Shown piece after piece: positions 1,516 to 11,602 of a DNA stretch of 12,658 nt (its first letter is position 1; each line of letters begins with the position of its first letter). Position numbers and translations under genes: made by a program. Source of the stretch: Thoreauomyces humboldtii (Eukaryota > Chytridiomycota > Chytridiomycetes > Spizellomycetales > Powellomycetaceae); contig JADGJA010000677.1 in NCBI GenBank assembly GCA_027596035.1, forward strand, positions 1 through 12,658, given 5' to 3'. Under the pieces are notes generated by a model, which saw nothing but the letters and a program-made list of their open reading frames with translations, was not told the origin of the DNA and did no database searches.

Positions 1516-3691
1516 ATGGCGTTCCTACAGACCATGGCCCACGGAGGCTTTCCAGCTACAGTTCCGTCAATGGCGCAAAAGGGCAATGCAAACTTCGCTC
1601 CACCCTCGCTTCCTTCGTACCAGCAACAGATGTCCCAGCAACCGCCACAGACCGTATACCCGCTCACGCACCCTCTTCACCCATCCAACATATGTCTTCC
1701 GAGCCCCTCCGCCAACCTCTTCGAACGAAGCATGAATGCCATCGTGAGCAACTTCAGAGGTACCATAGCGAACACGGCTTCTCCTCTGGTCAACGGCGCC
1801 AGCATGATGGGCCACGACGGCGCTGCACAGGGACATGGAGATGGAGAGTGGGATTGGGATAGGGATTTTCAGGACGGATATCAGAACGCCGACATGGCCA
1901 GTCAGGACCTGCTAGGTACGGGTGGAGTTTCTAACCAAATCGAGCGTATATCCCCACCCATCGTGCTCATCTATCATGTACTCTCTTGTAGGTCTGTTTG
2001 CGTCGAGCCCCGGATCACATCAGCGTGTAGATAGCGGCAATGCATTGTCACCTTCCACGGCAACCCTGTTCAATTTGGATAACGGCCAGTCGCTCCTGAC
2101 TCCCAACGGATCGTTGCGAAACGATCTCTTCACGTCGCCACAAACGTACGCCAATGATTTCGTGAACTATCAACCTTACGGGGAAGGGGCACTTCCCCTT
2201 GGCGACCCTCAGGACACGACAGAGTTCAAGAACCCCGCCTTTGATTACATCGTCGGATCGTTCCTGGATACCATCGATTCCATGACCCCAGCGACCTCTT
2301 TCAACCTGAATTCGTTCGATGACATCTCCAAACCTGTAAACGATGCTTCGTTTGATGCCTCGAAACCGATCGCCTTCCATCAGGACATGCTGCTGCTGAA
2401 CTTCAACGACGTAGCGGCCAGCATCGCGTTGAAGAAGCAGAACTCCTGGACGACGTCGGACGGAACGGACCTGCAGCACGGGCCCAACCAAGAGATGGTC
2501 GACTACCTGCAGGCATCCAACCAACTGTCTCACGGCGAGCGCCTTCGGTCGAACCACGGATTGGAACGCTCCGATATGGCTCCCAGTCGGCTTTCCCATC
2601 CCACGAGCCCAATACAGAAGCGGGTGCCGCCACGGACCGGTCCCGGCGCTGGGGCTGCGGCAAGCCGCTACTCCCCCAAGCGCACGTTCCAAGCTCAACC
2701 GCAGCACCTTCAGCAGTTTCCGCAACTCAACGGCACATCAGCGCATTCGTCACCTCAGCTCCAGCATCACTCACTGGTGAAAACGCCTTTGCTCCGATCC
2801 CACGGACCACCCTCCAGCCACCTTCAGCAGCACCAACAACAGCAACAGTATCACCAGCAGCAACAGCACGTCATCTACAGTGGCATGCAACATTCGCAAC
2901 AACAACAGCAGCAGCAGCAGCAGCAAAGCCAAGGCATGTCGTCCAACTCCAGCTATCCCGGCTCCACCCTACCCTACCATCCCACCACCACACCCCTGTT
3001 CCCATGTCCGACGCCCAACTGCTCCAAGGTGTTCGCAAAGTACACGGCCCTGACCCACCACCTCCAGACCCACCACGGCGCGCCCGGCGGCGGCAGCAAC
3101 AACAACCACCACCCGGCCTCGTCCACCAGCAGCGCCACAAAGAGCAAACCCTACCACTGCACCATGTGTCCCCAGACCTTCTCGAGGTCCCACGACCTCA
3201 AGCGACACTACTACATCCACACCCACGAGAAGCCCTACAGGTGCAAGAGGTGCTCCAAAGGGTTCAGCCGACGGGACGCTCTGAGGAGACACGAGAAGAG
3301 CGTCGCGGAGGGCAAGAAGGTGCACTGCAGGGACGTGGACGACGGCGACGAGGACGACATGGAGGGCGTCGAGGAGGACGAAGGGGAGTATCCCGACGAT
3401 GCGGACGGACGGAGCAACAGCGGTGGGAACCAGGCGTGGGACGACCCTGGCGGCAGGAGGGAGATGAGCGAGGGTGTGGGAGCTCCCGGTGGTGGTGCTG
3501 GTGGTGGCGCTGGTGGTGGTGCTCCTGGGATGGGCGGCGTGGGGATGGACGGTGTCCCGAGGTCACCGTACGCCGCGGGCGGCGGGAACGCGATGGCGTC
3601 CGGACGGAGGTCCAACAGCGGGAACTCCCAGGGAAGTAGGTCCAGACGAACTTCTGCTAGAGACCTGAGTCTCCTGGGCGATGGGAGTTGA
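1516..3691 (+). CDS. C2H2 zinc-finger transcription factor (two exons, 699 aa)
   Basis: Exons are 1516-1915 and 1992-3691, with a 76-base GT-AG intron (donor GTACGG, acceptor CTTGTAG) that joins ASQDLL-G-LFASSP in frame. The ATG at 1516 is the first in the leader and has A at -3 and G at +4. The first 400 residues are Ser/Pro/Gln-rich and disordered, and glutamine tracts lie at about 410-450 (CAG/CAA repeats). Finger 1 has C472, C477, H490, H494 (C-x4-C-x12-H-x3-H). Finger 2 has C523, C526, H539, H543. Finger 3 has C551, C554, H567, but no His three to five residues later; H578 or C579 would have to be the last ligand. A TxEKPYRC linker joins fingers 2 and 3. An acidic block (about 580-610) and a Gly-rich block (about 630-670) follow, then a basic Ser/Arg tail. 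It is presumably a nuclear, sequence-specific DNA-binding regulator; the fingers do not let me name an orthologue. Confidence 0.93.
1916..1991 (+). other. Spliceosomal intron in the zinc-finger gene
   Basis: The donor is AG|GTACGG and the acceptor TCTTGTAG|GT. The exon frames on the two sides differ and are reconciled only by removing these 76 bases. A CTAAC branch-like site lies at 1931-1935, unusually far (about 56 bases) from the acceptor, so another branch point may be used. Confidence 0.88.
2824..2930 (+). repeat. CAG/CAA trinucleotide tracts encoding polyglutamine
   Basis: Mixed CAG and CAA codons give two glutamine-rich blocks separated by HVIYSGMQHS, within about residues 410-450 of the zinc-finger protein. 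The mix of the two codons argues for selection on glutamine content rather than a recent pure expansion, and it should slow slippage. Confidence 0.85.
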
Positions 3692-6266: not shown

Positions 6267-6703
6267 GCTCGTCAGGCTGGTGATGTGCGTTGTCTTCCGA
6301 GCCGTCGTCTTTTTGCGCTCCCGCTGCTTGCGGTAGCAGGTGCGTGATTGGGAACGTCTGTGCCGATGACTTCTGGGTACCGGTGCTCGTGATATGAGGC
6401 AATGAGAGATCGAAGTTTTTGTTCGTGCGCCTAGTGCGATCATTTCCGTTAACTTTCTTACAATAAAAGACTGGGAGATTCAAAGACGCGAAATTACCAG
6501 CGCTTCGTCAACATCAACGTCCACATCCCCAGCCAGATACTCATCTCGCAAACATGGCCGAAGGTGCAGTAAGATGGCAGTGATAACCTTCATATTACAA
6601 CGAAACAAATTGACCATTGAAGGATGAATCGACGAAAAGATGAAGACGACTGAGACGACTAGGGTTCTTCTACGCCTGAACAAAACGGCCCAAGGTACCC
6701 CCC

Positions 6704-7792
6704 TCATCTCGACTGCACGAACGATTTTGGGAATATCCCGGACTTTCCACGAAACGTTCCCTTGTACCAGTTTTCGTCCACTAAGAAAAGAATGAAGAGC
6801 ATTACGAAATCGAGTGAATACGCTTGTTTTCCATGCGAGAGGGTTTCTGCTGGGGGAAGGGGGGCGGAGGTGACATCCATCCATCGACTCACCATCCTCC
6901 TGAACCACGACGATGTCTCCCTTCTGGAACCCCAGGTCGCCGTCCTCGGTGGGTACGTGATCCTCGACTGCCACGACGGTTCGCCTCGACAGGGGTCGGG
7001 CGGAGACGGGGGGCGGTGTCGGTGTGGGTGTCGATGATTTGTTCAAAGAAAGGGAGGCGAGGGACATCAATGCCGGAGATGATGCGGTGGATTGGTGCTG
7101 CTGCTGCTGCTGCAGGTGAGGAGAGGCCACGGTGTACGCCTTCTTCAGGGCGCTGGGACTCGGGGCAGGGAATGGTGGGTTCGGGCTCACGGAGCGGGAT
7201 TCTGGAGGCGTGTACTGGTGTTTCGTGATGGAAGGAGAACGACCGGGGAGAGGTGGGGAGATGGTTGAGGATGCGGGAGTGGACAGTCCTGCTGCGCTGG
7301 CGGTGCGAAGGACGCTGTGGGTTGTGAGGTGGGGGATGGGTTGGGATTCGGCGCGGGATGGGATGGGTGGTGATGGTGCTGCTGCATTTGGTTTGCTGTA
7401 CGAGAGATCCGGATACGTGGTTCGAGACACGGGAGCGCTGCTGGGGTGGGAGGCGAGGGGTGCGTTGGGGTCGACGTTCAGACCGTTCTGGGCCAAGGTC
7501 GAGACGAGGAGTTCGAGGGCCTGCGAGGAGATCCAGTTCCGTTGGCTCAAAGCTGAAAGGCGAGGAAAGAAGAATGGGAAGACACACAGTCAATGAGACG
7601 ATAGGGGGAGAAGAAGGACAACGACGTCCCCTTACTTGCGAGGTTTGTCTGTAGGCTCTGCCTGACGTGTTCCCTGTAGGCAGCGTTTCCGTGCTCGTTG
7701 AGGTCGCTGAGGTCTGTGACCTGCTTCTTCTTTCCCTTGCCAACGCTGCCGCCGCTGCTGCCTCCTGAGGAACCCTTTATCCTTGAGAGCAT
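6704..7792 (-). CDS. SH3-domain protein resembling yeast Lsb1/Pin3 (three exons, 297 aa)
   Basis: Exons are 7792-7636, 7552-6893 and 6780-6704. The introns are 83 bases (GTAAGG...TTTCAG) and 112 bases (GTGAGT...TTCTTAG), both phase 1. The N-terminus (MLSRIKGSSGGSSGG...GKGKKKQ) is Gly/Ser/Lys-rich. A helical segment around residues 36-75 (AAYREHVRQSLQTNL, then RNWISSQALELLVSTLAQNG) is followed by a long Pro/Ser-rich linker with a short Gln run. The SH3 domain fills about residues 244-295: EDGDLGFQKGDI, NWYKG (W277) and GIFPKSF (P290) are clear, and the protein ends two residues later. The DGDLG and WYKG words, the C-terminal position and the short helical N-terminus resemble Lsb1/Pin3, which bind the actin-nucleation factor Las17/WASP in yeast. 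A cortical-actin or endocytic adaptor role is therefore likely by family. The ALYDY motif is changed to AVEDH. The ATG chosen is the first after a TATA element about 125 bases upstream. Confidence 0.88.
6781..6892 (-). other. Intron splitting the SH3 domain
   Basis: The donor G|GTGAGT and acceptor TTTTCTTAG join ...VVVQED-V-DENWYKG in frame, restoring an uninterrupted SH3 fold. The 112 bases removed would otherwise break it. Confidence 0.85.
7553..7635 (-). other. First intron of the SH3-domain gene
   Basis: The donor CAA|GTAAGG and acceptor CCTTTCAG|CTT flank 83 bases. Splicing yields QTNLA-T-LSQRNW, joining the start-codon exon to the long second exon. Confidence 0.82.
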
Positions 7793-8570: not shown

Positions 8571-8801
8571 GGAGGTGGACTGCTGTCCACTTGGGAGATA
8601 GATTACGGGCACTGTCCCAGCGACATATGCGAGCGGGACATGTTTGCCGCCCCAATCGTCGAAGGAGCGGCAGGAGCAAGTGTGGCGCAGCAGTTCATAC
8701 GATTCGACAGAACCCTTGAACGTCAATCCCTCTCCCTCAAGCAGGAAACGAGGCTTGCCCTTATCACGGGCATGCCATCTTCTGTCAACAAGAAACTGAC
8801 C
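8571..8801 (+). other. Startless protein-like segment abutting the tRNA-like element
   Basis: The frame containing STWEIDYGHCPSDICERD, MFAAPIVEGAAGASVAQQF and IRFDRTLERQSLSLKQETRL runs into ITGMPSSVNKKLT and then directly into the tRNA-like sequence at 8798, after which its translation loses protein character. An ATG at 8640 lies inside the segment. The coding-like sequence stops where the element begins, which is what an insertion into an older coding sequence would look like. I find no clean target-site duplication. The family is not recognised. Confidence 0.33.
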
Positions 8802-8869
8802 ACTGTGGCTCAGTGGTTAGTGCGCTCCAGCTCACACTGGAGGCCACGGGTTCGAATCCCGTGGGGGTC
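8798..8869 (+). tRNA. tRNA-like sequence, degenerate cloverleaf (SINE head or tRNA pseudogene)
   Basis: The A box TGGCTCAGTGG (8806-8816) and the exact B box GGTTCGAATCC (8849-8859) are present. The T arm is perfect (ACGGG/CCCGT around TTCGAAT). The acceptor pairs G8798-C8869, A-T, C-G, C-G, then an A/G mismatch, C-G and T-G. One extra base lies between the acceptor and the D stem, which itself has a T/T mismatch. The anticodon stem CTCCAG/CTGGAG closes a loop of only six bases (CTCACA); restoring one base would give a Val(CAC)-type loop. These defects argue against a working tRNA while leaving the Pol III promoter intact. Confidence 0.6.
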
Positions 8870-8902
8870 TGGCACTCGGACCCAGCTAAACTGAGTGAGC
8901 CC

Positions 8903-8920
8903 CTGGGGAGACGTCCCCAG
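8903..8920 (+). other. Perfect 7-bp hairpin in the body of the element
   Basis: CTGGGGA pairs with TCCCCAG around a GACG loop. It lies between the tRNA-like head and the ribozyme-like domain and is a likely structural module of the RNA. Confidence 0.7.
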
Positions 8921-8940
8921 CTGGATGCGGCGATAGTAAC

Positions 8941-9003
8941 GGGTTAATGCAGCTACCCCGATCCAAAGCCCGGAAACCTCAAAAGAGGGATGCAGATGGG
9001 CCT
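8941..9003 (+). ncRNA. Twister-like self-cleaving ribozyme (type P1)
   Basis: The order of elements matches the twister fold. P1 is GGG (8941-8943) with CCT (9001-9003). The cleavage-side segment TT|AATGCAGC puts predicted self-cleavage between U8945 and A8946. P4 pairs C8958-G8973, C8959-G8972 and G8960-C8971 around the loop TCCAAAGC (8962-8969), which keeps the conserved AAG; CCCGG follows. A P5 hairpin CCTC-AAAA-GAGG (8977-8988) comes next, then TGCAGA (8991-8996), whose GCA can pair with the TGC of AATGCAGC as P2. The loop bases UCCA (8962-8965) can pair with UGGG (8997-9000) as the long-range pseudoknot, matching the UUAC/GUAA pairing I recall in the env22 twister while differing in sequence. 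P3 seems absent (four bases, TACC). P1 is short (two G-C and one G-U). Calls are by eye, without a covariance model. Confidence 0.68.
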
Positions 9004-9011
9004 TTCATATA

Positions 9012-9046
9012 TTTTTCGAGGTTTTTTATTTATTTTTTATTTTTTT
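9012..9046 (+). terminator. T-run cluster, likely Pol III terminators
   Basis: Runs of five (9012-9016), six (9022-9027), six (9033-9038) and seven (9040-9046) Ts follow the ribozyme-like domain. Eukaryotic Pol III stops at four or more Ts on the non-template strand, so transcripts from the internal promoter upstream should end here. Confidence 0.55.
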
Positions 9047-10462: not shown

Positions 10463-11602
10463 TTAGTAGATGCCGTCGCCGGCGACGACTCCGGGCTCGT
10501 GGAAGCCGGACGCGTAGCCCTTGTCCTGGGCGGCGTGGTGTCGGGAGTGGGCGAAACGGGGGAGTACCTCGCGCTTGGGGTTGGCCTCGTGGAGGACGTA
10601 GAGGGCCACTCGGTACGTGGCGAGCGCTGAGGATACGATCCAGAAGTACTGAGAAACGGGAAGAAAAGGAAAGAGGAAAAAGGTTAAGACTGGGGCGACG
10701 ACGACGACGATCGGACGATGGGGAAGGGAAGAGGGGGCACGAAGAAATACTTACTCCCATCAGCTTGAGGATCGCCGTCTCAGAGATGAACCAGCCGAGA
10801 ACGCCGAGGAGGGATCCGGTGGCGAGGGTGAAGAGGGACGATGCCCAGATCAAGTCGCGGAAGGTACTGAAAGAAGATGACGAAAGAAAAAACAAAAGTC
10901 AGTTCAACGATCACAAGAGCGACGACGACGACGACGAGGATGAGACTTACGCAGCGGCGGTGAGAACGTAGGTGAGGATGGCGAGAGGAACCATCCAGAT
11001 GGCCCAAGCATCATTGTAGGCGTATCGGTTGACGATGCCGCCGACAGCCGCGTCGGGGTGGATGACAGCGAGGGAGAGGGAGACGGCGATCCAGAAGGCT
11101 CCCCACATGGTGTGGAAGACGGTGGCCAAGGTGTCGCGAGAGCTACGAAAAAGGAACGGAGGGAGAGCACATTTGTTAGACAGGTGGGTCGGACAGCGGA
11201 CGACGACGACGACGACGGCAAAGGTAGTCAGTCTTTCGACTGCTATGAAGTTACTTACTTGAAGGACCACATTCCAGCGGCGAACTGACCGAATCCGCCA
11301 AAGGTGAGGAGGAAGGGCCAGAGTGCGAAAGGGGTGAGCTCGTTGCCGTACCACGATGCGAGCCAGGTGGCGACGATGAAGGTGGACGAGGCGAATGCAG
11401 CGAGACCGAGTGCCGAGGGAGCGGCGATCGGGGTCAGGTTGATGCGAGCGAAGGGACCGCCGGCGTTGGTCTTGTGGTGGTTGCCGGGGAGATCGTAGGC
11501 GGGTCCATCGTGGTCGAGTGTGTTGGTGGACATGATTTGCTGCCCGTTGTTGGTGGCCTGGGAGTGTGCGAGAGGAGGCTGAGTAGTAGATTCGTAGGGC
11601 AT
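10463..11602 (-). CDS. GPR1/FUN34/YaaH (Ato) family acetate transporter (four exons, 277 aa)
   Basis: Exons are 11602-11259, 11142-10951, 10866-10755 and 10648-10463. All introns have GTAAGT-like donors and TAG/CAG acceptors (116, 84 and 106 bases), and the frames join cleanly. About 55 hydrophilic N-terminal residues are followed by six hydrophobic segments near 57-83, 90-113, 119-141, 159-180, 182-204 and 212-236, and a basic cytosolic tail. The family word FGGFGQFAAGMWSF (about 101-114) followed by a WGAFW motif is diagnostic. These proteins carry acetate and other short monocarboxylates, or ammonium in some members, across the plasma membrane. The usual NPAPLGL signature reads APSALGL here (61-67), with Asn and the second Pro replaced. 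The first ATG has AAA before it; an in-frame ATG at residue 24 is an alternative start. Confidence 0.92.
10649..10754 (-). other. Transporter intron 3 with a (TCG)n tract
   Basis: This 106-base intron (GTAAGT...TTTCTCAG) joins LKLMG-YFWIVSS in phase 0. It has four to five TCG units mid-intron, a TTAAC branch-like site and a long pyrimidine tract. Confidence 0.87.
10867..10950 (-). other. Transporter intron 2 with a (TCG)n tract
   Basis: This 84-base intron (GTAAGT...TTTCAG) joins LTAA-A-TFRD. About five TCG units begin 13 bases after the donor. Confidence 0.87.
11143..11258 (-). other. Transporter intron 1 with a (TCG)n tract
   Basis: This 116-base GT-AG intron (donor GTAAGT, acceptor TTCGTAG) joins GMWSF-N-SRDT. 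It carries about six tandem TCG/GTC units (11200-11217 on the + strand as GAC repeats). Confidence 0.85.

Follow-up and report, generated by a model that had tools for sequence, protein, structure and literature searches.

The window, by which we mean the whole stretch of 12,658 nucleotides analysed from a contig of the chytrid Thoreauomyces humboldtii, contains Pfam matches at 6480-7550 (-), 11255-11602 (-) and 1922-3691 (+), namely DUF3402, GPR1/FUN34/yaaH and a C2H2 zinc finger protein that carries polyglutamine runs, and these matches are compatible with a fungal genome. All window features described in the following lie on the forward strand. Positions 8790-9020 matched 12 places in the 20.7-Mb genome, the window and 11 others, with 78-87% identity and on 12 contigs, and a query with 8871-9006 alone led to the same 12 contigs; as only the best candidates were scored, copy counts are lower bounds and the element has at least 12 copies. 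This number is low for a SINE, yet the copies are dispersed. In the alignments of copies a tRNA-like head is followed by body hairpins, a twister-like 3' part and a T-rich end, so arranged that the motif at 8941-9003 forms the 3' end of a dispersed SINE-like element with a common core of about 230-290 bp. The first-pass annotation had described a twister ribozyme in an intergenic region; the twister motif proved real, and it is more than an intergenic motif, since it belongs to a dispersed element with a tRNA-like head, of which it is the 3' module.

The tRNA-like head (8798-8870) has a degenerate anticodon loop of 6 nt and is called an undetermined tRNA by ARAGORN, a call obtained in 4 of the 12 loci. 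Its Rfam tRNA score of 23.7 bits is below the gathering score of 29, which a single copy, C759, passes with 30.1 bits. Positions 8806-8816 read TGGCTCAGTGG, which is A-box-like, and lie in a block (8805-8816) with 88% mean pairwise identity in nine copies. At 8849-8859 we find the B-box-like GGTTCGAATCC, a full match to the B-box consensus GGTTCGANTCC. A B box in which 9 or more of the 11 letters agree (N being scored as a match) is present 83-98 bases upstream of the twister in 9 of the 12 copies, and in three copies (C116, C354 and C255) the head is lost or altered and the twister kept. Upstream of the head, a conserved block at 8758-8797 shows 84% mean pairwise identity in nine copies, compared with 81% for the head; it may be promoter-like or part of a longer element. 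When this block and the head were used as query, nine places were found, every one of them a twister-bearing copy.

Downstream of the head, RNAalifold folded nine copies into two body hairpins, each with one double-changed pair. In hairpin 1 (8874-8896; 8874-8879 with 8891-8896) the pair 82-104 is A-U in seven copies and U-G in two, and in hairpin 2 (8903-8920; 8903-8909 with 8914-8920) the pair 112-127 is U-A in six, A-U in two and unpaired in one. Comparison of the copies also revealed T-runs resembling Pol III terminators behind the motif (9012-9038, with runs at 9012-9016, 9022-9027 and 9033-9038), and in 12/12 copies a run of at least five T starts no more than 15 bases after the motif's end. 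The ends of the element are diffuse, with no convincing target-site duplications in the 12 copies, and homology does not stop at the head but continues upstream of it, some copies being homologous also for 250-490 bases downstream, past the T-runs; these findings count against simple Pol III retrocopying. Each of the 12 fetched loci (2.7-4 kb) contains one exact core and at most one model match, and no second ribozyme per unit was found in them.

The type-P1 twister motif itself occupies 8941-9003 according to the Rfam alignment, the alignment of copies, RNAalifold, pairing counts and the covariance model R2 (see below). The bases on which the first-pass annotation had built its proposal are all in place, with TTAATGCAGC at 8944-8953, CCGATCCAAAGCCCGG at 8958-8973, the hairpin CCTC/GAGG at 8977-8988 and TGCAGATGGG at 8991-9000, and the twister order and spacing hold as well, since RF03160 is aligned end to end over exactly 8941-9003. 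Stem P1 (8941-8944 with 9000-9003) is weak and ends in two G-U pairs, P2 (8948-8951 with 8991-8994) has 4 bp, P4 (8958-8960 with 8971-8973) borders a mismatch of 8961 and 8970, and a P5-like hairpin (8977-8980 with 8985-8988) is present in a motif that lacks P3. Pseudoknot T2 (8952-8969) joins G8952-C8953 of L2 to G8968-C8969 of L4, and pseudoknot T1 (8963-8999) joins C8963, C8964 and A8965 of L4 to U8997, G8998 and G8999 of L1. The twister core (UAA, L2 GC, L4 AAGC and GA in L1) is present in the window copy and all of its listed bases are kept in 11 of the 12 copies, C354 having lost the G of GA. In the window this G, in the 3' L1 strand, is G8995, a putative catalytic guanine which we take to be the probable equivalent of G48 of env22 and G45 of the rice twister, the catalytic guanine proposed in the review PMC5408937; G8968, which had been named as a key test base, lies in T2 instead. 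Cleavage is predicted at the U-A step 8945-8946, from the position in the RF03160 alignment and from the U-A site given in the same review. There, too, a short junction is said to take the place of P3 in about 20% of annotated twisters.

An Rfam scan of the whole window (E up to 5) reported no twister and only tRNA-like matches, at 8799-8870. When the 83-base slice 8930-9012 was scanned alone, twister-P1 (RF03160) was matched over model positions 1-68 of 68, with 19.5 bits and E 0.028. This is far below the gathering score of 67.2 bits, by which the first-pass annotation would have judged the motif; that score is a poor test, because it also shuts out 40 good twisters of the same genome, the best of which reaches 66.7 bits. 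The Rfam threshold for twister-P1 can thus conceal whole families. Relatives of the window copy score higher, with C816 reaching 28.3 bits over the full length. Lone weak RF03160 matches prove little, sub-threshold matches being found also in 10 of 14 prokaryote control genomes. Counted over the 20.7-Mb genome, the pattern TTAATGCAGCN{2,20}CAAAGCC is present 11 times, as against 0 when read backwards, which is more than chance would give. With Twister-P5 (RF02684), nine matches were obtained, all below threshold, and five of these belong to the window's family.

Searching the genome with RF03160 (E up to 10; best 61 of 1915 candidates scored) led to 44 matches, none above 67.2 bits, of which 40 scored 34.9-66.7 bits and four 19.3-20.7 bits. 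Two of the weak ones are window-family copies (C759 and C564). The other two, C379:45783 (+) and C113:33001 (-), with 20.6 and 19.3 bits, lie in a near-duplicate region of 2 kb that lacks UAA where the cut would fall; they are probably due to chance and were treated as such, outside the 40. The 40 (L066-L105; 38 distinct rows) are good twisters, since 98.1% of 872 cells are paired and 15 of 23 pairs show double changes. Their P1 and P3 stems are diverse and compensated.

From the 40 better twisters elsewhere in the genome we built one covariance model (R2), and from the 12 window-family copies another (R1). With filters off, R2 ranked 8941-9003 (+) as the best place of the window (20.2 bits, E 0.001), the next best place scoring 9.3 bits; the lead amounts to 11 bits, and E-values of such models are rough. 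Over 13 sources, R2 gave 12 matches, in the window and in 11 of the 12 family loci, the window copy being again among the latter. It was correctly placed in 10 of the 11 non-window loci (E 0.001-0.18), C354 being missed, and in 59 kb (E up to 10) no match fell outside the window-family motifs. In the reverse direction, R1 was run over the window and 42 loci (97 kb, E up to 10) and gave 29 further matches in 29 of the 42 loci, all within independent twisters, the best with 24.4 bits, many of them weak and some partial.

Pairing across the copies points in the same direction. P1, P2 and P4 were proposed unprompted by RNAalifold from the alignment of the 12 twisters, and with both pseudoknots included, 97.1% of 204 cells are paired in the 12 diverged copies, compared with 15-53% for slid versions. 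By element, the paired cells amount to 97.9% for P1, 100% for P2, 95.8% for P4, 91.7% for T1 and 100% for T2, the last being unvarying in 12/12 copies, which is conservation and not covariation. A single pair of the 17 is double-changed, the P4 pair of columns 22-34, which is C-G in eight copies and G-C in four; the covariation within the family is modest, because the four G-C copies may come from a single event. The observed covariation score was reached by 4 of 500 shuffles; double-changed pairs and pair types were not above shuffles, 428 of 500 reaching the observed double-changed count. Mean pairwise identity in nine copies is 98% and 95% for the two twister core strands, 90% for P4/L4, 72% for the P5 arm and 87% for the whole twister. 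Outside the twister, and apart from the upstream block and head, it is 88% for the body at 8871-8900, 82% for hairpin 2, 54% for the stretch 8921-8938 and 68% for the T-rich tail. The whole twister is therefore not above the body at 8871-8900 and little above the upstream block; the core is conspicuous inside the twister, yet the twister is not the sole conserved part of the element.

A departure from the Rfam twister consensus in pseudoknot T1 led to relatives outside the fungus. In the consensus, CCC of L4 pairs with GGG of L1, whereas the window family has CCA with UGG, a linked change in which a loop-4 C to A is matched by G to U in the T1 partner, giving A-U for the consensus C-G. Viral loci were picked by the 5' half only, with the pattern TAATGCAGCN{2,20}TCCAAAGCC, and among the 57 loci obtained GCAGATGG is found no more than 75 bases downstream in 14 and GCAGAGGG in 0; a second viral pattern gave 89 stretches. 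The contigs with the A-U T1 subtype are L111, L117, L123, L124, L126, L129, L131, L132, L139, L145, L156, L159, L166 and L167. In the 13 distinct rows from these contigs, P4 is paired in 52/52 cells and P1 in 49/52, compared with shuffle means of 35 and 26, and 0 of 5000 shuffles were as high. At E up to 1, R1 reported the motif in all 14 A-U loci (partially in L145; weakest E 0.19) and in 0 of 14 loci taken from the other 43; one extra weak match lay elsewhere in L117 (14.4 bits, E 0.4). Scans of four of these loci against the complete set of Rfam families (E up to 1) gave twister-P1 at 42.4-49.6 bits, and none of the 14 passes the RF03160 gathering score. The same 5' pattern matched at least 118 stretches in bacterial genome contigs; among the 80 matches listed, none has GCAGATGG or GCAGAGGG within 75 bases, and with 0/80 for GCAGATGG these were rejected as twister relatives. 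Many of the bacterial matches that are 27 bases long resemble cysteine desulfurase coding sequence.

Reciprocal covariance models, pairing across copies and the viral-contig relatives together lead us to reject a chance resemblance to twister. They support the identity that the first-pass annotation had proposed, as well as its double-pseudoknot layout and its predicted cleavage step at U8945-A8946. The motif is real, and for 8941-9003 a divergent type-P1 twister is the best reading.

Whether every copy cuts is another matter. The weak P1 had been put forward as a reason to doubt activity, yet it is not the main doubt; according to the review PMC5408937, twisters can cleave without P1, and P1 pairing in env22 is limited to two central pairs. 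A clearer defect is A8961 x C8970, which breaks in the window copy a P4 pair described in the same review as an essentially invariant G-C. The pair is intact in the other 11 of 12 copies and is G-C in 13/13 distinct viral-contig rows. Probably the window copy is impaired by this mismatch, and even if the family does cut, this copy may do so slowly or not at all; the failure bears on the likely activity of this copy and not on the identity of the family. In the checked stems, pseudoknots and core bases, 5 of the 12 copies have no defect, among them C366, C116 and C759, and seven have one or more, the defect of C818 being confined to P1. Folding of the motif alone was no better than that of dinucleotide shuffles (z -0.04), its minimum-energy fold pairing 8940-8943 with 8957-8960 in place of P1. 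The whole RNA 8798-9020 gave z -2.05, with 5 of 200 shuffles as good, and the consensus fold of the whole RNA from nine copies retained P4 and lacked P1 and P2. These results are not decisive, since nested folding cannot make pseudoknots; the competing hairpin is, according to these folds, a real possibility.

The twister could thus be a decayed relic, inherited and no longer cutting in the window copy and perhaps in the family, with shared ancestry conserving the 3' end, an explanation that overlaps with our preferred one as to origin. We consider it a serious though unlikely one. The broken P4 pair, the defects in seven copies, the loss of the catalytic-G equivalent in C354, the small number of copies, the lack of target-site duplications among them and the alternative hairpin favoured by plain folding would all fit a relic; the five intact copies, and core strands that are 95-98% identical next to a P5 arm at 72% and a stretch 8921-8938 at 54%, argue against it.

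We prefer the reading, to which we assign a probability of about 0.72, that a P3-less type-P1 twister with an A-U pair in T1 forms the 3' module of a tRNA-headed element and gives rise to that element's 3' end. What the computations show is the motif, how it is conserved and paired among the copies, and its context; Pol III transcription, cleavage and role we infer. Directed by the internal promoter in the tRNA-like head, Pol III would transcribe the element through to the T-runs, giving a transcript composed of the tRNA-like head, two hairpins, the twister and a U tail. The terminal twister would then fold and cut between U8945 and A8946, leaving the upstream RNA with a defined 2',3'-cyclic phosphate end and without its U tail, and a ribozyme piece with a 5'-OH that carries the U tail. 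In this way the element would make its own 3' end.

Alternatively, the twister might trim or separate RNA in longer read-through transcripts or in transcripts of a larger element, the tRNA-like head being a mere relic, which we regard as unlikely. Homology upstream of the head and far beyond the T-runs, and the three copies that keep the twister without an intact head, speak for such a role, as do the other twisters of the genome: nine of the 40 have a B box no farther than 260 bases upstream (three of these at about -90) and 31 lack one, and a T-run follows within 30 bases in one and within 150 bases in nine, leaving again 31 without. In the window's family, by contrast, T-runs follow the motif in 12/12 copies and a B box precedes it in nine. 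LINE recognition sequences lie at the 3' ends of SINEs, so the position of the motif would also suit a SINE tail recognised by the reverse transcriptase of a partner LINE, with a twister likeness by chance; this is very improbable, given that two pseudoknots are kept though the models do not encode them, that twisters of viral contigs carry the same double change in T1 and that models from independent twisters find the motif.

Once the twister itself was masked, common flanks united 34 of the 40 other twisters into groups of 19, 4, 4, 3, 2 and 2, and the 12 window-family copies form a separate flank group. In aligned rows of the group of 19 (e.g. L071, L074 and L092), the twister directly follows a pyrimidine-rich stretch ending in TGTAG, which resembles a 3' splice site, and cleavage and splicing could be in competition there. 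B-box-like sequences, GGTTCGAGTCA in L080 and L088 and GATTCGAGTCA in L094, precede the twister by 90-94 bases, much as in the window's family; judged by this spacing, a common tRNA-headed ancestry of these loci and the window family is possible. When ten ORFs from three loci of other twister repeats were compared with Pfam, some matched ordinary genes (PGAP1, class-III aminotransferase, bZIP, ankyrin, alpha/beta hydrolase) and the rest had no match, and no reverse transcriptase was found among them. Counting the window's family and the six flank-sharing groups, we tentatively propose, with the odds somewhat against it, that a terminal twister trims the U tail off a Pol III tRNA-like RNA and that several flank-distinct families each carry a twister. 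If this is true, mobile elements of Thoreauomyces humboldtii make repeated use of twisters as working parts. To our knowledge, a biological role has been established for only a minority of genomic twisters. In the present case the place of the ribozyme in a likely transcription unit is clear, behind a tRNA-like head and as the last module before terminator-like T-runs, and broken and intact natural copies side by side make a role in mobility or 3'-end formation directly testable.

Compared with twister type P1 (RF03160), the window motif shares UAA at the cut site, a 4-bp P2, L2 GC, P4/L4, GA in L1, T1, T2 and a closing P1. It differs in that P3 is absent, a P5-like hairpin is present, T1 has A-U for C-G, P1 is weak with G-U pairs at its end, and the score stays far below the gathering score. 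Similar to the window family, the IMG/VR viral-contig twisters (L123, L131, L139, L159, L166 and nine more) have UCCAAAGC in L4 with an AUGG partner, and in 5 of the 14 L2 is likewise short, with no P3; they differ in being viral, and none of the 14 has a tRNA above the gathering score within 1 kb of its motif. Twisters are also described, in PMC10162972, from fungal ambiviruses and one mitovirus. In mostly open literature, covered by the titles and openings of abstracts that were listed, no twister in a tRNA-headed repeat or SINE was found, which is weak evidence of absence.

The closest likeness in architecture is offered by Sm-alpha and Sj-alpha of Schistosoma, which PMC2770079 presents as short SINE-like repeats with a self-cleaving ribozyme, adding that predicted tRNA-Gln repeats in Schistosoma turned out to be similar to Sm-alpha. 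That ribozyme is a hammerhead and not a twister, the host is a flatworm and, by the same paper, the copies are estimated at more than 10,000. Plant and animal retrozymes, as described in PMC4918200 and PMC7761336, are likewise non-autonomous repeats with self-cleaving ribozymes; they form circular RNA via double cleavage, whereas one ribozyme per copy was found in the window's element. Finally, the twisters of RTE retrotransposons, announced as in preparation in PMC7761336, also place a twister in a eukaryotic retroelement, with the difference that they lie at the 5' end of a LINE and that the window motif closes a short tRNA-headed element on its 3' side.
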